From a virus: DNA of 50,740 nt. The position numbers were made by a program, and so were the translations under genes. Numbering within the stretch: the first letter of the stretch is position 1; the number at the start of each line of letters is the position of its first letter. The notes below the pieces were generated by a model. The model had not been told where the DNA came from. It worked only from the letters and a program-made list of their open reading frames with translations, and made no database searches. The stretch spans positions 1 to 50,740 of IMG/VR virus record IMGVR_UViG_3300032288_004529; one strand, given 5' to 3'. Of the stretch, positions 28,153-50,740 are shown in pieces.

Positions 28153-28851
28153 ATGGCTTTACCAAAAATTCAAACACCAATGTTCTTTATAAAGATTCCG
28201 TCTTCACAAAAAGAACTTAAGTTTCGTCCTTTTCTCGTAAAAGAAGAAAAGCTACTGCTGATGGCGCAGCAATCTAATGACAATGAAGAGATATTGGCGC
28301 TATCACAGATCATCAACAACTGCTGTTTGGACACGATAGATGTTGATAAGCTTACTACGTTTGATGTTGAATACATTTTCTTAAAACTTAGAGCCAGATC
28401 AGTAAACAACATAGTTAAATTACGATATAGAGACATCGAAGATGACCAAGTCTATGATTTTGAATTAAATATAGATGACATTGAAGTGATTACTGATGAA
28501 TCCCACACAAACAAGATTCAAATAAACGATGAAGTGGGAATCATATTAAAGTACCCAAGCTTAAAAGTAAGTGAGAATGTATCGAAAGCAAATGATGAAA
28601 ACGATATGTTGAATAAAATTCTTATAAGCTGTATAGACGTTATTTATGATAAAGAAAAAGTCTATCCAGCTAAAGATAGCACTGAACAAGAGCTGATAGA
28701 TTTTATAGAAAACTTAGACACAAAAACATTTAAAAAGATAGAGCAGTTCTTTACGACGATGCCTAAGTTGTATCATGAAATTAAATATAAGAACTCATTA
28801 GGTCATGACCGCACTATTAAGTTGAGCACTTTAAAAGATTTTTTTACGTAG
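28153..28851 (+). CDS. 26: Baseplate hub/tail assembly chaperone gp26-like, zero-frame product (232 aa)
   Basis: Homologue of the T4 gp26-type baseplate protein family (PF12322-type). The opening is typical: a short 'LPKIQTPMFFIKIPSSQKEL' beta segment, then 'KFRPFLVKEEKLLLMAQQSN' and 'QIINNCCLDTID', the pattern shared by gp26 and by tail assembly chaperones of other myophages. Cys-Cys near residue 57 is usual in these families. AGGAG lies 9 nt before the ATG. The frame ends in 'LKDFFT' at a T7 run that carries a frameshift signal, so a longer product (see the entry ending at 29024) is also expected. It is located between gp54 and the probable tape-measure gene. Confidence 0.82.
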   Translation: MALPKIQTPMFFIKIPSSQKELKFRPFLVKEEKLLLMAQQSNDNEEILALSQIINNCCLDTIDVDKLTTFDVEYIFLKLRARSVNNIVKLRYRDIEDDQVYDFELNIDDIEVITDESHTNKIQINDEVGIILKYPSLKVSENVSKANDENDMLNKILISCIDVIYDKEKVYPAKDSTEQELIDFIENLDTKTFKKIEQFFTTMPKLYHEIKYKNSLGHDRTIKLSTLKDFFT

Positions 28852-29024
28852 GGCTGAGCCATAACAATCTCAAAAACTACTATACAACAGTTTTTGCATT
28901 GGCTCAGCACCATAAGTATTCTATGACGGAAATTGATGAACTTATACCATTTGAAAGGGACATATATGTTGAGATGCTTTTACAGTACCTTAAAGAAGAA
29001 AAAGAGAGAAGAGAGAAACCATAA
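28153..29024 (+). CDS. gp26 -1 frameshift fusion product (about 290 aa), tail-assembly-chaperone type
   Basis: Slippage by -1 on the T run at 28839-28845 continues translation for 59 more codons (28845-29021), ending in TAA at 29022-29024. The added part reads '...YYTTVFALAQHHKYSMTEID' and then 'ELIPFERDIYVEMLLQYLKE', a compact helical domain resembling the C-terminal domain of frameshifted tail assembly chaperones and gp51-type proteins. The -1 frame is blocked by TAA at 28818-28820 and has no ATG until 28923, so it cannot be an ordinary separate gene of this length. Its TAA overlaps the ATG of the next gene (TAATG), which fits a real translated frame. Fusion: residues 1-231 from gp26 plus 59. 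Confidence 0.85.
28839..28908 (+). promoter_or_regulatory. -1 programmed frameshift signal (slippery site plus stem)
   Basis: The slippery heptamer T TTT TTT occupies 28839-28845 in the zero frame (GAT TTT TTT ACG TAG). After a 7-nt spacer, GCTGAGCCA (28853-28861) pairs perfectly with TGGCTCAGC (28900-28908), a 9-bp GC-containing stem with a 38-nt loop. The geometry matches established -1 frameshift sites. The zero-frame stop lies in the spacer. Confidence 0.85.
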
Positions 29025-29293
29025 TGTCAAACCAAGACACTATCGACATAGATGGCGATGGGAGAGTGACTAAAATGGAAGAAAAAATAACAGAAGATAA
29101 ATTCAAAAACAGAAGAAGAATGGCATGGGTTGCTATGGTTTGTTTAGTGATTTATACCGCTATTCTTTTTACACCTTTGGTTGATTCAGGAAGAATCAAA
29201 TCTTTAGAAAACATTCTCGATATGTTCTATATAGCTATGGCTTCTATTGTAGGCGCTTATATGGGATTTGCAACTTGGGCTAGCAAGAAGTAA
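29024..29293 (+). CDS. Small two-helix membrane protein with an EF-hand loop (89 aa)
   Basis: Not recognised as a named family. Residues 8-19 form a complete EF-hand calcium loop: D8, D10, D12, R14 (backbone position), T16 and E19, with Gly at 13. Two hydrophobic stretches follow at about 33-52 and 64-86, separated by a short loop with 'VDSGRIKSLEN'. A basic cluster (KNRRR, 28-32) precedes the first helix, which favours a cytoplasmic N-terminus. The gene starts on the stop codon of the frameshift extension (TAATG) and is followed by the probable tape-measure gene. Two helices and small size would fit a holin, but the EF-hand loop is unusual for one; a tail or ejection role is equally possible. 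Confidence 0.65.
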   Translation: MSNQDTIDIDGDGRVTKMEEKITEDKFKNRRRMAWVAMVCLVIYTAILFTPLVDSGRIKSLENILDMFYIAMASIVGAYMGFATWASKK

Positions 29294-29297
29294 TCTT

Positions 29298-31139
29298 ATG
29301 TTTAAGCTATCAGAAAAAGCTACAGAGCTACTAAAAAAGAAATTAAGTCTAAACTATAAAGAAGAAGAAACTCTTAAAAAAGATTTCTTTGAGTTTGATG
29401 AAGATGCTTTTAAAGTAGATGAATCTGGTAAAGAAACGACTTCGTCTGATAGTAATTTTTTTGGAATGCTGAAAAACGTTTTCAGTTCAAACAAAGAAGA
29501 AAAAGCAATACTTAATGATATATTATCTAGCTTTGTATCAATAAATCAATCGTTTGATAATGTAGTTGATCTTTTAATGGGTAATGTATTGATCGCAGCA
29601 TCTCCTGAAGGAGAAGTGCCAAGCGAAGTTATAGCTCAACCTGGTTCAAAAAGAAAAAGAAAGAAAGAAAAAAGTTCTTTTCTAAGTAACATTATGAAGA
29701 TAGCTGGTCTAGCAGCTTTTGCTTTCTCACCAGCAATTCTTGATTTCTTGAAAGAAGATCCTGAAAAAATTAAAGAAAGTTTAACTAAAGCTTTTGATTG
29801 GATAACAACTGATCTTCCTAGTTTTTTCAAAAATGATTTAGGGCCTATAATCAGTAACTTCCTAGACACAGAGATTATAGGAAGTATTACCGGGATGGAT
29901 ATTCTAAAATCAGCTGGAATAGCTACTGCATTATATGCTGGTAAGGGAGTTATATTAAATCTTTTAACTAAAGCTCTCTTAAGCACTACAGGATGGTTCT
30001 TAAAATCTTTCTTTGGTTTTTTAGTATCACCAGCTGGACTTGCAATATTAGCTGCAGGATTTGTTGGAACCGGATTGGCGTATGTGGTTGGAAAAATTGG
30101 TGATTATGCAGATGAAAAAAGAAAAACAGAAGCCGAAGAAGCAGAAGCTGTAAGAGTCGCCGAGGAAGCTGCTCCAAATGTAGAAAAAAATCGGGTTGTA
30201 AAAGAAATACTTGGTGCTGCTCCGGCGTATATAAAACAAAATGAAAACGGAGCAAGAAGCGTTATATCTGGAAAAGTTGATAAAATTTTAGGAGATGGAA
30301 AATCCAAAGAAGCTAAACAATTTAAAAAGTTATCTCCAGAAGAAAAATGGAAAAAGATCGATAAAACTTTAACGCCAGATGAAAGAAGATCTATAAAAGG
30401 AGAAAAGAAAACAGCTCGTGAGTTATTAGATGAAACGAAATCCGAAACCCCTTCACTTGATGCTAAAGTTGCTCAGATGTTTCCTGATGCAACCATGGTT
30501 CTCCAAGCCGATTATAAAACACAAGCGTTTGGAACATCAGAACAAAGACAAGCTGCTAGAGACGCTTTAGCTAAAGAAGGCGTAAACGCAGAAAAAGATC
30601 CAACTATCGTCAGTGCAAAGGAAGCAGAGCTTCAAGCACAACCAGAGTTACCAAGAAAACCAGCTGCGAATGCAATTCCAATTGTAGATATGACTGCTCA
30701 AAATGGAGGAGATAAAACTACAGGAGAAGGACAAGCACTTAGTTTCATGGGCAGTGATCAGCAGACAAGTGTTGACGCTGAATCTGTTGCAGTTACACCT
30801 CCAACTTTAGCTATGGCGCAAATGCCATCGACTACAGAACAGTCTTCTCAAGTAGAAAGTTCTGGATCTTCTATCGAAAGTTTTATCAATAACTATATTA
30901 ATGCTGCAAAACCTATAGGCAATCAGATAGGTGAAGCGAGTGCAGAAGTTTCTGCTCCTCGTAAACCAAAACCGATAGTGATTCCTCCTCCCCGTCAAAC
31001 ACAAAAAGGTAAAATGATGATAAAGCCAGGAGAATCATGGAATATCAATGATGTTCCAGATCCTACTCCAAAATTAGGAAATCTTTTATCTCAATTATTT
31101 GTGCCTGAAACTAATTTTTCAGGAGCAATTAGCATATGA
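29298..31139 (+). CDS. Probable tape-measure or tail-interior protein with membrane segments (613 aa)
   Basis: Likely tape-measure (gp29 position) protein. It follows the frameshifting chaperone gene, the usual place of tape-measure genes in tailed phages, and at 613 residues is close to T4 gp29 (590). The N-terminal 110 residues are charged and helical; about 145-165 and 215-285 are hydrophobic ('AGLAAFAFSPAILDFL', 'LAILAAGFVGTGLAYVVGKI'), like membrane-inserting parts of tape measures. The second half is polar with Ala/Glu/Lys helices, then a Pro/Ser-rich region. I chose ATG at 29298 (SD AAGAAG) rather than the longer frame from 29268, which would overlap the previous gene. No similarity to gp29 itself is evident. 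Confidence 0.55.
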   Translation: MFKLSEKATELLKKKLSLNYKEEETLKKDFFEFDEDAFKVDESGKETTSSDSNFFGMLKNVFSSNKEEKAILNDILSSFVSINQSFDNVVDLLMGNVLIAASPEGEVPSEVIAQPGSKRKRKKEKSSFLSNIMKIAGLAAFAFSPAILDFLKEDPEKIKESLTKAFDWITTDLPSFFKNDLGPIISNFLDTEIIGSITGMDILKSAGIATALYAGKGVILNLLTKALLSTTGWFLKSFFGFLVSPAGLAILAAGFVGTGLAYVVGKIGDYADEKRKTEAEEAEAVRVAEEAAPNVEKNRVVKEILGAAPAYIKQNENGARSVISGKVDKILGDGKSKEAKQFKKLSPEEKWKKIDKTLTPDERRSIKGEKKTARELLDETKSETPSLDAKVAQMFPDATMVLQADYKTQAFGTSEQRQAARDALAKEGVNAEKDPTIVSAKEAELQAQPELPRKPAANAIPIVDMTAQNGGDKTTGEGQALSFMGSDQQTSVDAESVAVTPPTLAMAQMPSTTEQSSQVESSGSSIESFINNYINAAKPIGNQIGEASAEVSAPRKPKPIVIPPPRQTQKGKMMIKPGESWNINDVPDPTPKLGNLLSQLFVPETNFSGAISI

Positions 31140-33100
31140 TCAAAGAACTTATAGCTAAATTAAAAACTTCTAAATCAGAACAAAAAGAGAATGCTGATGA
31201 AAGTGATAAGCAAGAAAATCTAAATGAAAATGATTCACAGTTAGAAGTTAAAGAAACAAAGACAGTAATATTAACTAAACTATTATTAGAAGTTACTTTC
31301 TTTGCTAGAAAAATAAAGAACTTAGAAACACAGCTTTATAAAAGAGAACAGATAACAGAAGCAGCACAAGCTGAAGCTGTTTTAGAATCTGGTGGAGATA
31401 AAAAACAAGTGATACAAATAGGAGATGATGGTGAAGAAATAAAAGAAAAAGATGAAGAAGATGATGATAAAAAACCATCTGCTTTCTTCAAAATAATAAA
31501 AAATGCTTTAGGAATAATATTAACATTATTGCCCGTTATATTCGCTGGGTTTGATGGCATTAAAAAAATGTTTGGTGAATTACCAGACATCATGAATGGA
31601 TCATTTAAAGATATAGTGCTTTCATTGTTTGGAAAACTACAAAGCTCCATAAACCAATATGTGTTTAGTCCAATAGCAGAATATCTTAAAACGACTATAA
31701 CAGATCTTTGGAGATCATTAGTTTTATCGGTTGAAGAAACATTCGTTAATGTAGTTGGTTCTTTACCGACGTTTTTAAAAGATAATCTACCAGATGTCAT
31801 TAAAGGCATGGTTGAGTCTGCTACAGAAGATGTAGCGCAAGGAAAAACACCAGGAAAACAACCTGAAGTACAACCTACAGTAGGAAGCACAGGTTCATTT
31901 GGTGTAACTCAAGGCGCAGAATTTGGAGGAGAATATAAAACATTAGAATATGGTACTCCTGCCCCAGCTGCTCCTCCTCCTGCAACATCAGCGACCACTC
32001 CTGTTGCTCAAAGTGTTTCTACTGCACCTTCATCTGTGTCTTCTTCTTCGGTTATAATGTCAGAAACAACAGAAGCAACATCAACACCGTCACAGTCTAC
32101 TGATGCATCACGGGTTTTACCAGCTCCTAAAATGCCTGATGCAGTTTCAGCAATGCCTGAAATATCTCAGGATGTAGATAAAAATTTTGGTTTAATAGAA
32201 ACCGCATTAAAAAATCTTGGAATAGACGATCCGAAGTATGTTAGAGCCGTTAAAGCTAATGTAATGAAAGAAAGTCAAGGAAAAGCGATTGAAGAAAATT
32301 TAAGATATGGTGGAACTTCAAATGAAAGAATTAGGTCTATATTTGGCGAGCGCGCTAGAAGATTCACAGATGAACAATTAAATCAAATTAAGAAAGATCC
32401 AGTTCAAATGGGAGAATTGATGTATGGCGCCGAAACAAAAATAGGACGAGGTATGGGTAATACAGATCCCGGCGATGGATATAAGTTTAGAGGCCGAGGA
32501 TTTATTCAATTAACTGGTAAAAATAATTACACAAATGCTTCAAAAGATCTATTTAAAGATGATCGTTTAGCACAAAATCCAGATTTAGTTTTAGATCCAA
32601 CTATTGCTGCTTTAGTGACTGCGTGGTATATGAAAAAAGGAAAATCATCGATGGCCAAACGTCTTGGCATAGATGAAAACAATATGACTCAAGAAGAAGC
32701 TAATCTGTTAGCTACTAGCCAAATAGCAGGAAGTGATGTAAGAAAATGGAAAGGCGGCTATGGACAAGAATTGTTAGCTAAAGTTGGTTCATACTCTAAT
32801 CAGCTTGCCCCCTCAGGTACTTCAGAATCGATACAAGTAGCTTCTGCTCCTACTAATATTATGCCTGCTCCCGTTACTAAAGGAGTAGAAATCGGAACAA
32901 CTACACAAGCAGTAAAAGATGCAACTGAAAAGAAAGAAGATAAAGAACAAGCGGTTGTAATTCAAACTGCTATGGCTGCACAACAACCACAAATAGATGT
33001 AGAGAATCCTAAAAGAGTTGCCGGTGCTAGCGTTGGTTCAGCCAAAACACCGACAACTACTATACAAAGAAGCTACGCTAGCTATTTTGCTGTAGCTTAA
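31136..33100 (+). CDS. Structural protein with GH19-type murein hydrolase domain (654 aa)
   Basis: Probable tail-associated lysozyme. Residues about 345-555 form a GH19/chitinase-like (COG3179-type) domain: 'VMKESQGKA' with Glu379 and 'EENLRYGG' with Glu387 as candidate catalytic acids, then 'MGNTDPGDGYKFRGRGFIQL' and 'TGKNNY', the signature of this family in phage endolysins. The N-terminal 100 residues are acidic and coiled, residues about 110-200 contain a hydrophobic segment ('ALGIILTLLPVIFAGF'), and 230-340 is a Pro/Ser/Thr/Ala linker. There is no signal peptide. The ATG overlaps the previous stop (ATGA). Being in the tail operon, it probably opens the cell wall at infection in place of the lysozyme missing from gp5. 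Confidence 0.8.
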   Translation: MIKELIAKLKTSKSEQKENADESDKQENLNENDSQLEVKETKTVILTKLLLEVTFFARKIKNLETQLYKREQITEAAQAEAVLESGGDKKQVIQIGDDGEEIKEKDEEDDDKKPSAFFKIIKNALGIILTLLPVIFAGFDGIKKMFGELPDIMNGSFKDIVLSLFGKLQSSINQYVFSPIAEYLKTTITDLWRSLVLSVEETFVNVVGSLPTFLKDNLPDVIKGMVESATEDVAQGKTPGKQPEVQPTVGSTGSFGVTQGAEFGGEYKTLEYGTPAPAAPPPATSATTPVAQSVSTAPSSVSSSSVIMSETTEATSTPSQSTDASRVLPAPKMPDAVSAMPEISQDVDKNFGLIETALKNLGIDDPKYVRAVKANVMKESQGKAIEENLRYGGTSNERIRSIFGERARRFTDEQLNQIKKDPVQMGELMYGAETKIGRGMGNTDPGDGYKFRGRGFIQLTGKNNYTNASKDLFKDDRLAQNPDLVLDPTIAALVTAWYMKKGKSSMAKRLGIDENNMTQEEANLLATSQIAGSDVRKWKGGYGQELLAKVGSYSNQLAPSGTSESIQVASAPTNIMPAPVTKGVEIGTTTQAVKDATEKKEDKEQAVVIQTAMAAQQPQIDVENPKRVAGASVGSAKTPTTTIQRSYASYFAVA

Positions 33101-45863: not shown

Positions 45864-46745
45864 TTATTCTTCTAGTAGACCATGTCTAATGACGTATTTT
45901 TTTAGTCCGTCACCTAATTCAATTTGTTCAAAGTCTTTAAATCTGCCATCATCTTTTTCTTTATGAATACAGATCATATTTGATTCATAGAATTTTGGTA
46001 TGTTTTCTTGGTTACACTTTATGTGAGAATAGACCCAAATATTTTCATTATGTTTGTTATGATTGTTAGTATTGAACTTAGGATAAACATGCCAATAACA
46101 ATTATAGTCTAAATCTTTAATGGCTTTTAAAACTAAATCGTTTCCTTCTATTCCATTGAATTCAATGTACATGTGTGGTTTGTCTCTTGTAAGCAGTTGT
46201 TTACCTGATTCTATAACTTGTACTTCAGTTCCTTCGCAGTCCATCTTGATAAAGTCAATTGTTTTCCCAAGAAAATCAACATCATCTAACCGCATGATTT
46301 GAGTGCTAAGATTAGACGTTTCATCAACGCTATTGATATTGAATTCACCATAGTTGAATTTTTCATAATTAGGAGTATGAATAACTGTTTTAATGAAATC
46401 ATTTCTATCAGCTACAAATGATCTTATTGGTACTATATTAAAGCAGTTGTTCATTACAATATTGCTGTTCAGTAGCAGAAAGATGTAAAATTGTGGTTCA
46501 AATGAAAATATAAAATTCTTATTACATCGCTGTGCTAACCAAACGGTGTGTGTTCCTACATTTGCACCTAAATCAATACAGCACGATTCTTCCGTTACTA
46601 GTTTGTCTATGACATCAAATTCTTGATCGGCCCATTCTCCATATAAGTGCAGGCATGTTCCAATAGGATCATCTCCTTTAAATACATTTATTAAACCATA
46701 TTTTGTATTGAGACTTGCTACTTTTGGAGTATCAATAACTATCAT
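45864..46745 (-). CDS. FkbM-family SAM methyltransferase (293 aa)
   Basis: Class I SAM-dependent methyltransferase of the FkbM type. Motif I is 'CIDLGANVGTHTVWLAQ' (about 55-71), post-I acidic residue in 'FSFEPQFY', and 'TIDFIKMDCEGTEVQVIESG' (about 165-185) is the characteristic FkbM motif. FkbM enzymes O-methylate sugars and small molecules; in phages the substrate is unknown, and capsular or lipopolysaccharide sugars are possible. The last 60 residues contain Asn/His-rich and acidic segments of unclear role. It overlaps the GIY-YIG-like gene by 4 bases (ATGA) and is followed by the basic membrane protein after a 3-base gap. Confidence 0.88.
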   Translation of the reverse strand: MIVIDTPKVASLNTKYGLINVFKGDDPIGTCLHLYGEWADQEFDVIDKLVTEESCCIDLGANVGTHTVWLAQRCNKNFIFSFEPQFYIFLLLNSNIVMNNCFNIVPIRSFVADRNDFIKTVIHTPNYEKFNYGEFNINSVDETSNLSTQIMRLDDVDFLGKTIDFIKMDCEGTEVQVIESGKQLLTRDKPHMYIEFNGIEGNDLVLKAIKDLDYNCYWHVYPKFNTNNHNKHNENIWVYSHIKCNQENIPKFYESNMICIHKEKDDGRFKDFEQIELGDGLKKYVIRHGLLEE

Positions 46746-47143
46746 TTTTTAATTCCAATATTATTGCGTGTAAATTTCATCATTATATTATCATTGTAGT
46801 AATCGTCAGTTTCCAATACGTTATGTATGAATTGAAGCTTGGCTTCCCAGTAATTACATTCACCTCTTGTTTTACACAGTCGCAAGATCGATCGTTTGAA
46901 TTTATCTTGGCCTTCTTTTCCAATGTCTAAAAGTAAACGTGAAGAAGAGCCCCAGTAGTCTTTCCAATCAGACTCCTTGCGGCACCTTTTTCTTTTACCT
47001 TTAATTTGTTTGGATGAAGCTTTGGTGAAGTACTTACGGCCGATGTATCGTTTACCTGTTTCGATATTTTCTATCAGATAAACGAACCCATAGTATTCAT
47101 TCACAAGTTCATAGTCTATTTCTTTTTCTTCGTAGAGCCACAT
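46742..47143 (-). CDS. GIY-YIG-like nuclease (133 aa)
   Basis: Small putative GIY-YIG endonuclease. 'GFVYLIENIETGKRYIGRKY' carries the GIY-like and YIG elements, 'DWKDYWGSSSRLLLDIGKEG' matches the following 'DYYGSS' region of phage enzymes, and 'NYWEAKLQFIHNVL' supplies the catalytic Glu (the 'WE' position). A strongly basic segment ('KQIKGKRKRCRKE') lies between. It has no separate DNA-binding domain, so it may be a free-standing Seg-like or repair-type nuclease. Its Shine-Dalgarno sequence (AGAGG) sits in the loop of a 9-bp hairpin, with a late promoter positioned to start inside it. It is located just downstream of nrdB. Confidence 0.78.
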   Translation of the reverse strand: MWLYEEKEIDYELVNEYYGFVYLIENIETGKRYIGRKYFTKASSKQIKGKRKRCRKESDWKDYWGSSSRLLLDIGKEGQDKFKRSILRLCKTRGECNYWEAKLQFIHNVLETDDYYNDNIMMKFTRNNIGIKK

Positions 47144-47174: not shown

Positions 47175-47273
47175 TCATTTTATACGATTTAAAAGATATG
47201 CAAAAGCTAAGACAGTTACACACAATATATAATAACTGTATTCTGCTATTAATTGTGTAACTAAGCTGCCCAT
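47175..47273 (-). CDS. Possible 32-residue membrane peptide
   Basis: A 32-codon frame starts at ATG 47273, overlaps the last 13 bases of nrdB and ends at TGA 47177-47175. Sequence 'MGSLVTQLIAEYSYYILCVT' continues with 'VLAFAYLLNRIK': one hydrophobic helix with a basic end. GGGA lies 6 bases before the ATG. It fills the 117-base gap between nrdB and the GIY-YIG-like gene. Without homologues to compare, chance cannot be excluded. Confidence 0.38.
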   Translation of the reverse strand: MGSLVTQLIAEYSYYILCVTVLAFAYLLNRIK

Positions 47274-48247
47274 ACTTCTTCCCATGATCCTGATAAGGCG
47301 CCTTTTGCGTAATCGGTTGCACGATTCTCAAAGAAGTTTGTATGAATAGGTGCATTGATCATCGTCTCAACCCAAGGCAAAGGATTCTTTTTAACTTTAA
47401 ATATTCCTTTCAATCCTAAAGAAATGAGGCGACGGTCAGCAATATAGCGAATATAATGCTTGACATCAGCAGCAGTGAGATTTTCCATATCACCAATTGA
47501 GAATGCAAGGTCGATGAATCGATCTTCGAGCTCAACCATCTTTTCAGCGATTTTATAAATTTCAGACTTGAGACTATCATTCCATATCTCTCTGTTTTCT
47601 TCAATAAAAGTTCTAAAAAGTTTGATCATCGATTCTGCATGCATTGTTTCATCAACGATAGACCATGTAATGATCTGACCCATTCCTTTCATCTTTCCAT
47701 GGCGAGGAAAGTTAAGTAGCATAATGAAAGATGAGAACAGCTGCATACCTTCAGTAAACGCGGAGAATGCAGCGATCTGTTGCGCAATTGTGTTAGCATC
47801 TTGACCTGCAATCTGTGTAAAGAAATCATGCTTAGCTCTCATCTCTTCATACTGCATGAACTCATTGTATGTTGTTTCAGGCATGCCTAATGTTTCAATC
47901 AGATGTGAATATGCAGCAACATGCAATGCTTCACGAGCAGCAAACCCACACAGCATCATCCTTACTTCAGGTTGAGGAAAATAAGGGAGGTAATTATGAA
48001 CGTAGCCGCCAGCAACGTCAATATCTCCTTGTGTAAAAAATCTAAAAATATTTGTAAGAAACTTCTTTTCTTCATGGGTTAACCTCTTCTTCCAGTCTTT
48101 GACGTCTTCCATCATTGGGACTTCAGTATGAATCCAATGAGACTGCTCATGCTTAAGCCAAGCATCATAAAAAAAAGGATATTTGAATGGCTTAAAATAA
48201 GATCGTTCATCAGTTAGCTTCAATTCTTTGAATTGTTTTGATTTCAT
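47261..48247 (-). CDS. nrdB: Class Ia ribonucleotide reductase small subunit NrdB (328 aa)
   Basis: Beta subunit that houses the tyrosyl radical and di-iron centre of ribonucleotide reductase. Metal ligands and radical residue are in place: Asp in 'FTQGDIDVAGG', Glu, His and Tyr spaced E-x2-H-x3-Y in 'REALHVAAYSHL', Glu in 'AFTEGMQL', Glu and His in 'IVDETMHAESM'. The C-terminal 'ALSGSWEEVWAA' is a typical tail that binds NrdA. I start it at ATG 48247 (AAGG 8 bases before), since earlier codons belong to the homing endonuclease frame. The length of 328 residues fits the short NrdB group found in marine phages and bacteria. It overlaps the endonuclease gene by 38 bases. Confidence 0.95.
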   Translation of the reverse strand: MKSKQFKELKLTDERSYFKPFKYPFFYDAWLKHEQSHWIHTEVPMMEDVKDWKKRLTHEEKKFLTNIFRFFTQGDIDVAGGYVHNYLPYFPQPEVRMMLCGFAAREALHVAAYSHLIETLGMPETTYNEFMQYEEMRAKHDFFTQIAGQDANTIAQQIAAFSAFTEGMQLFSSFIMLLNFPRHGKMKGMGQIITWSIVDETMHAESMIKLFRTFIEENREIWNDSLKSEIYKIAEKMVELEDRFIDLAFSIGDMENLTAADVKHYIRYIADRRLISLGLKGIFKVKKNPLPWVETMINAPIHTNFFENRATDYAKGALSGSWEEVWAA

Positions 48248-48926
48248 TTGTTTTACCTTTTTTATTTGCTCCAGTTCCACCCTGATAACCATCCATTTTA
48301 CCTCTTATCCAACCATCTAGCTGCTGGCCTTCAAAAAAATATGCATGTTTTTTACCATTATTGTATATCTTACGCCCTTTAGTATTATTTCCATTATTTT
48401 TACTTCCTATCAATATATCACCAATTTTACCATTTTGTATTCTTCCGTGTTTCCATCCATCAATCAAACTCTTAACACGGCGATTCTCAACACCATTGTT
48501 CACCCAAAATGTATCTTTTGTAATGTTTCTACATCTTTTGGATCTTTCGTCATGGGGCTCTTTAATGATATATTTTGTTTTTGGAAATGATTTACCTATT
48601 AATGACTTGCTTATTTTTTGTTTAACTGAATCAGAAATTTTATTTCCTTGTGGTGCACCATCTAATCCATTTTCATTTATTAAATTTGCCCATCTATTTG
48701 ATTCTATTATATTATGGTTTAAAGAAAACTCAACTGCAAAAGATGAACATTCTTTTTCTGTTGAGAAAGTTTTAATGATTTCAGTGGTAAAATTATTGCC
48801 ATGTTTTTTTAAATGGGTTTTCCAATATTTACCTGAACCTGTGTAAGTAACAGGATCTTTTCTTGTTGTTTTACCAAAATATTTTAGACCGGTAACGTTA
48901 TGTGTCTTTATATAAAGATAAATCAT
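48210..48926 (-). CDS. GIY-YIG homing endonuclease between nrdA and nrdB (238 aa)
   Basis: Free-standing homing endonuclease of the Seg/GIY-YIG type. Catalytic domain: 'MIYLYIKTHNVTGLKYFGKT' (degenerate GIY and 'YFG'), 'YTGSGKYWKTHLKKHG' and 'FAVEFSLNHNII' with the catalytic Glu. Downstream, 'SVKQKISKSLIGKS' is a NUMOD3-like DNA-binding motif, and two copies of a motif follow: 'WVNNGVENRRVKSLIDGWKH' and 'IYNNGKKHAYFFEGQQLDGW', each with 'G(R/K)' endings. The 3' end overlaps nrdB by 38 bases. No Shine-Dalgarno sequence precedes the ATG, suggesting low expression. It is a selfish element that would cut and copy itself into the nrd locus of related phages. Confidence 0.9.
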   Translation of the reverse strand: MIYLYIKTHNVTGLKYFGKTTRKDPVTYTGSGKYWKTHLKKHGNNFTTEIIKTFSTEKECSSFAVEFSLNHNIIESNRWANLINENGLDGAPQGNKISDSVKQKISKSLIGKSFPKTKYIIKEPHDERSKRCRNITKDTFWVNNGVENRRVKSLIDGWKHGRIQNGKIGDILIGSKNNGNNTKGRKIYNNGKKHAYFFEGQQLDGWIRGKMDGYQGGTGANKKGKTNEIKTIQRIEAN

Positions 48927-48955: not shown

Positions 48956-49159
48956 TTAATCATTTGTTTTATGTCCGATCATATGTATCTTTTCACGTTC
49001 GATCATGTCGATGATGAAAGTTGTTATCTGTATCTCTTTGTTAAGAAAGAATAACTTAGTCTCAAGTTCTTTGAGCTTTTGTTCATAGAACGCAAGTTCT
49101 TTTTGCTTTTCCTCGCGCATCCTATAAACATCTGCCAATAAGACTATTTTATTGTCCAT
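48956..49159 (-). CDS. Small coiled-coil protein downstream of nrdA (67 aa)
   Basis: A small helical protein starting at ATG 49159 (or the ATG one codon earlier), overlapping the nrdA stop. 'REEKQKELAFYEQKLKELET' and 'LFFLNKEIQITTFIIDMIER' give an almost unbroken coiled coil. GAGGG lies 4 bases before the chosen ATG. I have seen small coiled-coil genes beside nrd genes in marine T4-like phages, but their role is not known. A longer frame from 49171 runs back into nrdA and is not needed. Confidence 0.68.
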   Translation of the reverse strand: MDNKIVLLADVYRMREEKQKELAFYEQKLKELETKLFFLNKEIQITTFIIDMIEREKIHMIGHKTND

Positions 49160-50740
49160 CATCCCTCGCAAGCTAGACAGGCTTCTCCTTCGGTTAACTG
49201 CTTCATATCAATTTCTTCAATGATGTGTCTTTCGATCTTCCTTGCTACTTTATCCGCTTTTCCAATTTTCTCAGAGCGGCAATAATACAACGTCTTTAAG
49301 CCGCGCTTCCAAGCAAGAAAATGAACGGCATGAAGATATATGATATTTATATTCGGTCTAAAGAAAAGATTGACGGACTGTGCTTGATCGATGAACTCTT
49401 GACGATCGGCCGCATGTTCGATCACCCAACGTTGATCGATTTCCATTGATGTCTTAAACACGTCCTTCTCCCAATCAGAGAGAAATTCTAGATGTTGAAC
49501 TGACCCGTCGTTTGCAATGATCGAAGACCAAATCTCATCATATTGCAATTTCTCATCTTCTTTACATTTTTCTACAATGAGCTTATCCAAGAATCTATTC
49601 TTGTAGAATGAAGCACCACTTAACGTATCTTGACGATATGCGTTTGCGCGATATGGCTCAATAGATGGAGAAGTGTTACCCATGATGATTGAACTCGATG
49701 CATTTGGTGCTATGGCCATAAGGTGGCTGAATCGTAGCCCAGTTCCTTTAGCGTCAGGAGCTTCACCTCTCATAGATCCAAGTTGCTTGTTGGATTCATC
49801 AAGCTGTGTACGAACGTGTTTGAAGATCTTCCTGTTCAATCCTACTGCCATAGCGGATTCCCATGGAATGGATTTTTTCTGTAAATATGCATGAAACCCA
49901 AGAGCACCAACACCAATGCTTCTTTCACGGAGAGCTGAGAACTTTGCTCTCTTGATGCTGTTTGGCGCGTGATTTATAAAATACTCCAAAACATTATCAA
50001 GCATTTCAGCTATGTCGCGGAGGAACATCTTGTCGTTCTTCCATTCGTCGTAGTATTCTATATTCACCGATGAAAGACAACAGACTGCTGTTCTGTTCTT
50101 ATCAGTCGGCAAGACGATCTCAGAGCATAAGTTGGATTGCTTAATTGAAAGGCCTAACTTCTTTTGCCATTCAGGCAAGTGCTTGTTTGATGTATCTATA
50201 AAGTGGATGTAGGGTTCACCAGTCAACATCCTTGTCTCAAGTATCTTCTGCCAAAGTTCCTTAGCGGAGACCGTTTCCTTCACCTCTTTGTTGTGTGGGT
50301 CGACTAGGTTCCATGAGTCATCGGCCTCTGGGTCCAACATACACTTCTCGATAAGTTGCATGAAGTCATCGGTGATGTTGACGCCGTGATGAAGGTTGAG
50401 TGTTCTCATGTTGGGGTCGCCAGTAGGCTTTCTCATATCGAGAAACATCACGATGTCTGGGTGAGAAACGTCTAGGTAAGCTGCATAAGAGCCGCGGCGC
50501 GTCTTACCTTGGCGATAAGCTAGAGAAGATGCATCATAGATCTTAAGGTGTGGCATAACACCGGTAGACTTTTCATCAGAAGAGCGAATGCCAACACCAA
50601 TACCAATGCCGCCACCAAGCATCGACAGCCAGTTGACTTCTGACAAGCAATCCACAAGTCCTTCAGCGGTATCATGAAGATACGGTAGAAAGCATGAAAT
50701 AGGTAGTCCATGCTTACTACTACCGAATGAAAGAATAGGA
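49159..50740 (-). CDS. nrdA: Class Ia ribonucleotide reductase large subunit NrdA, 5' part outside the window (at least 526 aa)
   Basis: Alpha subunit that reduces ribonucleotides to deoxyribonucleotides. The frame is open to the window edge: 'PILSFGSSKHGLPISCF' near 50700 holds the first active-site Cys of the family. 'QSNLCSEIVLP' supplies Asn, Cys and Glu of the radical site, and 'AVCCLSSVN' the second redox Cys. The C-terminal 'EGEACLACEG' is the CxxC that re-reduces the enzyme. The ATP-cone, if any, lies outside. The base composition is less AT-rich than in the baseplate genes. It is transcribed with the coiled-coil gene, endonuclease and nrdB. Confidence 0.96.
   Translation of the reverse strand, partial: PILSFGSSKHGLPISCFLPYLHDTAEGLVDCLSEVNWLSMLGGGIGIGVGIRSSDEKSTGVMPHLKIYDASSLAYRQGKTRRGSYAAYLDVSHPDIVMFLDMRKPTGDPNMRTLNLHHGVNITDDFMQLIEKCMLDPEADDSWNLVDPHNKEVKETVSAKELWQKILETRMLTGEPYIHFIDTSNKHLPEWQKKLGLSIKQSNLCSEIVLPTDKNRTAVCCLSSVNIEYYDEWKNDKMFLRDIAEMLDNVLEYFINHAPNSIKRAKFSALRERSIGVGALGFHAYLQKKSIPWESAMAVGLNRKIFKHVRTQLDESNKQLGSMRGEAPDAKGTGLRFSHLMAIAPNASSSIIMGNTSPSIEPYRANAYRQDTLSGASFYKNRFLDKLIVEKCKEDEKLQYDEIWSSIIANDGSVQHLEFLSDWEKDVFKTSMEIDQRWVIEHAADRQEFIDQAQSVNLFFRPNINIIYLHAVHFLAWKRGLKTLYYCRSEKIGKADKVARKIERHIIEEIDMKQLTEGEACLACEG

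Follow-up and report, generated by a model that had tools for sequence, protein, structure and literature searches.

The stretch of viral DNA analysed here, which we call the window, is the 50,740-nt IMG/VR record IMGVR_UViG_3300032288_004529, from a T4-like phage of water. It carries a homologue of T4 gene 26 that stops just after a run of seven Ts, while a second reading frame continues past the stop in the -1 register. Is this second frame a separate gene, a sign of a base lost in sequencing, or the end of a longer, frameshifted form of the first protein? A first-pass annotation, made from the letters alone, had read it as a programmed -1 frameshift. Each of the comparative tests described below agrees with that reading: a fixed frame, an invariant heptamer, synonymous constraint, a conserved stem and selection on the -1 frame ahead of any start codon. 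Judged from sequence, it is very probable that the gene 26 homologue yields both a short gp26 and, by -1 frameshifting, a long form, in the manner of lambda gpG/gpGT.

Anatomy of the gene 26 locus and identity of its products

The zero frame of the gene 26 homologue ends ..AAA GAT TTT TTT ACG TAG, and the T run, the stop codon, the spacer and the stem lie, to the base, where the first-pass annotation had placed them (Table 1). The two arms of the stem pair perfectly over 9 bp, and the helix is lengthened by pairing of 28851-28852 with 28910-28911. As had also been described, no stop interrupts the -1 frame from 28821 (a TAA occupies 28818-28820) until the TAA at 29022-29024, which overlaps the ATG of the next gene (29024-29026) in the sequence TAATG. 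An early ATG had been reported as lacking from this frame; the earliest ATG, GTG or TTG is the TTG at 28899, and the earliest ATG is at 28923. The extension adds 59 residues past the second Phe, giving a predicted fusion with gp26 of 290 aa.

Table 1 Features of the gene 26 locus in the window
Feature	Coordinates	Strand	Basis
Zero-frame gene 26 homologue (232 aa)	28153..28851	+	PF12322, E 9e-57; phrog_150 (baseplate hub), E 7e-63
Slip heptamer T TTT TTT (zero-frame codon phase)	28839..28845	+	Sequence; invariant as T TTT TTT/C in 74/74 relatives
Spacer of 7 nt from heptamer to stem, including the zero-frame stop TAG (28849-28851)	28846..28852	+	Sequence
5' arm of 9-bp putative stimulatory stem, GCTGAGCCA	28853..28861	+	Fold; pairing in 46 relatives
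3' arm of putative stimulatory stem, TGGCTCAGC	28900..28908	+	Fold; pairing in 46 relatives
Inner 8-bp A/U-rich hairpin within the stem loop (28871-28878 with 28889-28896)	28871..28896	+	Fold of window sequence
-1 frame extension, gp51 C-terminal-like domain	28842..29024	+	phrog_634 (baseplate hub assembly catalyst), E 4e-25; -1 frame in every locus
Following gene, for a holin-like membrane protein of 89 aa	29024..29293	+	phrog_27150, E 1e-11
Downstream 613-aa gene, candidate tape measure	29298..31139	+	Position only

Both parts of the fusion have recognizable relatives. In a profile search, residues 12-231 of the zero-frame protein matched positions 5-218 of the 219 in PF12322; the protein is of the T4 gp26 type, a putative short, G-like tail assembly chaperone. 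The earlier description of the extension as a gp51-like domain is borne out by phrog_634, which matches both the extension and residues 147-246 of T4 gp51 (E 1e-23). Taken alone, the tblastn alignment of the extension to the C terminus of Aes012 gp51 is weak (E 4). Across 50,697 phage records, tblastn found relatives of gp26 in 855 and of the extension in 600, chiefly in cyanophages and in Vibrio and Aeromonas phages.

AlphaFold2 models of gp26 and of a T4-type gp51 were both confident (pLDDT 84.8 and 83.7), and the C-terminal end of the gp51 model, the counterpart of the extension, consists of three helices (206-248). A Foldseek search of the PDB with the gp26 model returned no match at E < 0.001; the HK97 chaperone 2ob9_B stood at rank 5 (E 0.95, probability 0.30, TM (target) 0.40), so a likeness of fold to this tail assembly chaperone is suggestive only. 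The fold search of the PDB with the gp51 model gave nothing significant, sequence searches of the PDB with gp26 and gp51 profiles gave no match, and NCBIfam contained no model covering these proteins. Fold searches of viral models returned gp26-family proteins.

In many tailed phages, frameshifting chaperone genes precede the tape-measure gene. In the window the tape measure is a candidate by position only: the 89-aa gene lies between, and a search of the phage collection gave no relative of the 613-aa product. The 89-aa holin-like gene, which separates the chaperone cassette from the next large tail gene, also has a weak, below-cut-off match to GTA_holin_3TM. Further along, at 31136-33100, a 654-aa protein contains a stretch (448-499) resembling glycoside hydrolase 19 (chitinase/lysozyme-like), just below the Pfam cut-off, and is probably a tail-associated cell-wall enzyme. 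Elsewhere in the window, a SegE-type GIY-YIG endonuclease (46742-47143, minus strand; PF19835, E 3e-37) lies near the ribonucleotide reductase genes nrdB (47261-48292) and nrdA (49159-50655).

Slip site, frame and selection in relatives

Using gp26 or the extension as queries, we gathered 160 loci from IMG/VR, which after removal of near-duplicates left 74 non-redundant loci (viral contigs); 73 loci entered a codon-level alignment of the fusion. The scans were pattern-based and biased toward aquatic T4-like phages, and the sequences share kinship, so that the counts that follow are not counts of independent events. At every IMG/VR locus in which both parts could be placed, the extension is in the -1 frame. 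Every locus found through gp26 also has the extension; the result is therefore not a product of the extension query.

A slip heptamer is present within three codons of the gp26 stop in all 74 loci, as T TTT TTT in 49 and T TTT TTC in 25, and no locus departs from this; in other parts of these genes, the frequency of in-frame X XXY YYZ heptamers is 0.0045 per codon. Conservation of the slip site, about which the first-pass annotation had asked, is complete in this set. Synonymous identity tells the same story: among 171 informative codon columns (73 loci), the slip codons F230 (1.00) and D229 (0.985) are the top two, compared with about 0.5 elsewhere for the same sequence pairs. Homopolymers are prone to sequencing and assembly errors, and loss of one T would split a single gene in just this way. 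However, the arrangement recurs in 74 of 74 non-redundant contigs and in named isolates that many groups have sequenced, and such a heptamer in every relative, set against 0.0045 per codon elsewhere, means that the T run is not a sequencing error. The missing eighth T, which the first-pass annotation had itself raised against its reading, is refuted by this conservation and retains a negligible probability.

Named phages extend the pattern. Within the overlap of the two frames, 14 of 18 that we examined have T TTT TTN: S-ShM2, P-RSM1, S-MbCM25, P-HM1, S-CREM2, Melnitz, Cr30, phiM7, phiM9, Rhizobium phage I1_18 (in which the site lies nine codons upstream of the stop), Vibrio phage D481, Aeh1, Aeromonas phage P19 and Acidovorax phage ACP17. 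Their hosts include Synechococcus, Prochlorococcus, Caulobacter, Vibrio, Aeromonas, Acidovorax and Sinorhizobium, and in Cr30 and I1_18 an annotated tape measure gene lies nearby downstream. The remaining four of the 18, all Ackermannviridae with a -1 extension, lack the tandem slip heptamer. The slip site is shared by nearly all sampled T4-like relatives outside T4's own group. The arrangement had been presented as that of one T4-type phage; it is present here, yet it is not peculiar to this phage and is general outside the T4/Tulanevirus type.

The Ackermannviridae loci (L168 3229-3402, L175 2151-2351, L176 2226-2402 and L177, from Kuttervirus, Taipeivirus and a Vibrio phage) have gp26 ends reading ..ATT TTC ATT TAA.., followed in the -1 frame by a gp51-like extension, which is unannotated in the records of three with enteric hosts (SJ2, K5lambda5 and rabagast). 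In none of the phage records that we inspected are the two ORFs joined; the extension is given as a gene of its own, truncated, missing or unannotated. In Melnitz EXVC044M (L173 3001-3204) it is annotated from an internal ATG, at the cost of its conserved N-terminal third, and this start is likely a mis-annotation.

The extension could instead be a short gp51 in its own right, begun from its own start codon by termination-reinitiation just past the gp26 stop. In 17 of the 73 contigs an ATG does precede the conserved block in the -1 frame, often 5 nt past the gp26 stop, and a separate start is the annotation in most cyanophage records (for example, S-ShM2 and P-HM1). Yet in 46 of the 73 loci, the window included, there is no ATG, GTG or TTG before the conserved block, that is, upstream of H237, a residue that with F248, H254 and others is conserved in 72-73 of 73 loci, and the block is still under protein-level selection. 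Loci that do have such an ATG show no departure from the slip heptamer, and in this group the ATG sits in a hairpin just 3' of the slip site.

Selection ahead of any start codon bears most directly on this alternative. In the window clade, the -1 frame before the first possible start has a pN/pS of 0.20, with 281 of 456 differences in the same stretch falling at the third -1-frame position. Among the 31 loci with no start before F248, pN/pS in that region is 0.36, compared with 0.47 in the gp26 body. These substitution patterns show protein-level selection acting on the -1 frame before any start codon is reached, and we regard selection on residues out of reach of a local start as the strongest sequence evidence for frameshifting over a separate gp51 gene. 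For the window clade we reject a separate start, given the lack of a start codon and the pre-start selection, and it is improbable overall.

Putative stimulators around the slip site

In the window, a 75-nt region containing the stem has a folding energy of -23.2 kcal/mol (z = -4.7; 0 of 200 shuffles as good), and in its 181-nt context the fold is weaker (z = -2.1). Because RNAalifold predicted no consensus structure on either alignment, we tested the stem against a named structure. Among 46 relatives of the T TTT TTT type, ranging from close to middling, 95.1% of cells were paired, compared with 24-37% when the structure was slid along the alignment. Four stem cells had changed on both sides, compared with 1.0 expected (1 of 500 shuffles), and the covariation score was 0.136, compared with 0.125 (10 of 500 shuffles). 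Much of the stem's conservation is therefore invariance and its covariation is modest: of the two points that the first-pass annotation had asked about, conservation of the stem is well borne out and compensatory change only modestly.

Folds downstream of the slip site in relatives have a mean z of -2.97, compared with -0.33 in gene-body control windows. Some members of the T TTT TTT group have no good stem (for example, L145, L114 and L123), the inner A/U-rich hairpin varies among relatives and is not general, and an Rfam search of 28700-29100 gave sub-threshold chance matches only. Phages of the cyanophage type, with T TTT TTC, have a short hairpin instead, with 65.8% of cells paired and a covariation score of 0.190, compared with 0.083 (reached by 0 of 500 shuffles); its 5' arm contains the ATG commonly annotated as the gp51 start. 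This type (for example, L043, L040 and L046) also has a Shine-Dalgarno-like GGAGG or GAGGG, usually 10 nt upstream of the Ts, with a mean anti-Shine-Dalgarno duplex energy of -8.0 kcal/mol, compared with -3.0 in controls. The same kind of upstream signal was sought in the window clade and was absent. By analogy with known bacterial frameshift cassettes, the stem, the hairpin and the Shine-Dalgarno-like element may each act as a stimulator.

A -1 product could also arise by transcriptional slippage, in which RNA polymerase adds or drops a U on the T run to give mixed mRNAs, and seven Ts are at the edge of slippable length. But 25 of the 74 relatives have six Ts and a C (TTTTTTC), a good ribosomal and a poor transcriptional site, and a stem spaced by 7 nt and a cyanophage GGAGG placed 10 nt upstream have the character of ribosomal frameshift stimulators. 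We consider slippage by the polymerase very improbable, more so than a separate gp51 start.

Around the observed anatomy, conservation, constraint and homology, we infer a ribosomal mechanism, from the slippage and its efficiency to the role of the stem and a function in assembly. Most ribosomes would read GAT TTT TTT ACG TAG and stop, releasing the 232-aa gp26 as the short chaperone. In a fraction, both Phe tRNAs would slip back one base at T TTT TTT, with the stem 7 nt downstream of the heptamer as a roadblock; these ribosomes would bypass the stop in the -1 frame and append the extension, giving the 290-aa long chaperone. From the analogy with lambda gpG/gpGT and the genetics of T4 genes 26 and 51, the short and long chaperones would each coat or fold the tape measure/hub complex while the tail is being built; the extension would serve tail assembly or hub recruitment.

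A more tentative proposal, which we hold with rather less than even confidence, is that T4-like phages evolved differing stimulators around one invariant slip site. The window clade would use a far-reaching stem and no Shine-Dalgarno-like element, and cyanophages an upstream GGAGG with a short hairpin in which a spurious start codon is hidden; Ackermannviridae would reach their -1 extension without a recognizable tandem slip site, by an undescribed route.

Relation to T4 genes 26 and 51 and to known chaperones

The frameshift in the lambda gpG/gpGT tail assembly chaperones was reportedly described by Xu, Hendrix and Duda in 2004. Like lambda, the window phage has a short form and a predicted -1 long form, whose end lies shortly before the candidate tail-length gene region; unlike in lambda, the slip site is T TTT TTT, and no sequence similarity was found between the window proteins and gpG/gpGT. 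The window also resembles T4 26/51 in combining the gp26 family (PF12322) with an extension domain found at the C terminus of gp51, whereas T4 has two adjacent, divergently transcribed paralogous genes and no slippery site, its gp26 ending GAG TTC TTT GAG.

The first-pass annotation had contrasted the joined arrangement with separate genes 26 and 51 in T4. There are indeed two genes, but gp51 is more than the extension: residues 1-201 of the T4 protein cover the whole of the PF12322 profile (E 4e-52), and its whole length matches phrog_150 and its C terminus phrog_634. Profile-profile comparison of the gp26 and gp51 families (hhalign) gave a probability of 97.4 (E 1e-11). By these matches T4 gp51 is a gp26-like domain plus the extension, and the short (26) and long (51) chaperone forms of T4 come from two genes that, given the PF12322 match of residues 1-201, are paralogous and not unrelated. 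A tree of 27 sequences, whose root is not established, places T4-type gp26 and T4-type gp51 in clades of their own (100/99), separate from the gp26s that carry the frameshift. Because Aeh1 and P19, which like T4 belong to the family Straboviridae, carry the slip site, a frameshifting ancestor with a later duplication would be the simpler history. T4 gp26 and gp51 have been termed hub assembly chaperones, and gp51, though needed for assembly, is not part of the virion (PMC3004832), as would suit a chaperone.

The frameshift chaperone arrangement is largely of a known kind, and the window phage, an uncultured virus record, is a well-supported new member. Vladimirov, Gautam and Davidson (Virology 2022, 566:9-15) are said to have established which proteins of T4-like phages are the tail assembly chaperones; these belong to the same protein families as those of the window. 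A passage in PMC10885494 attributes to Vladimirov et al. 2022 the finding that some T4-like phages have a short and a fused long chaperone gene, and one in PMC12846349 attributes to the same work poly-T slip sites in TAC-N genes of T4-like phages. In Vandenendeviridae/Andersonviridae (phage Adele), TAC-N ends in an invariant slip motif, GTTTTT, and has a -1 extension (PMC12846349); the phage families differ from that of the window, and the likeness noted here is one of arrangement. A 2016 review leaves T4 out of the conserved G-T frameshift (PMC5009743).

Sullivan et al. 2010 reported that cyanophage and marine vibriophage gp51 has no counterpart of the N-terminal ~200 residues of T4 gp51 and that Aeh1 has no gp51 (PMC3037559); frameshifting would explain both the short cyanophage gp51 and its apparent absence from Aeh1. 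About 600 phage records hold the extension, and those inspected split, shorten or omit it in their annotation. The chaperone frameshift thus appears to be standard in nearly all of the T4-like relatives sampled, and in T4's own group it would have been replaced by two paralogous genes.
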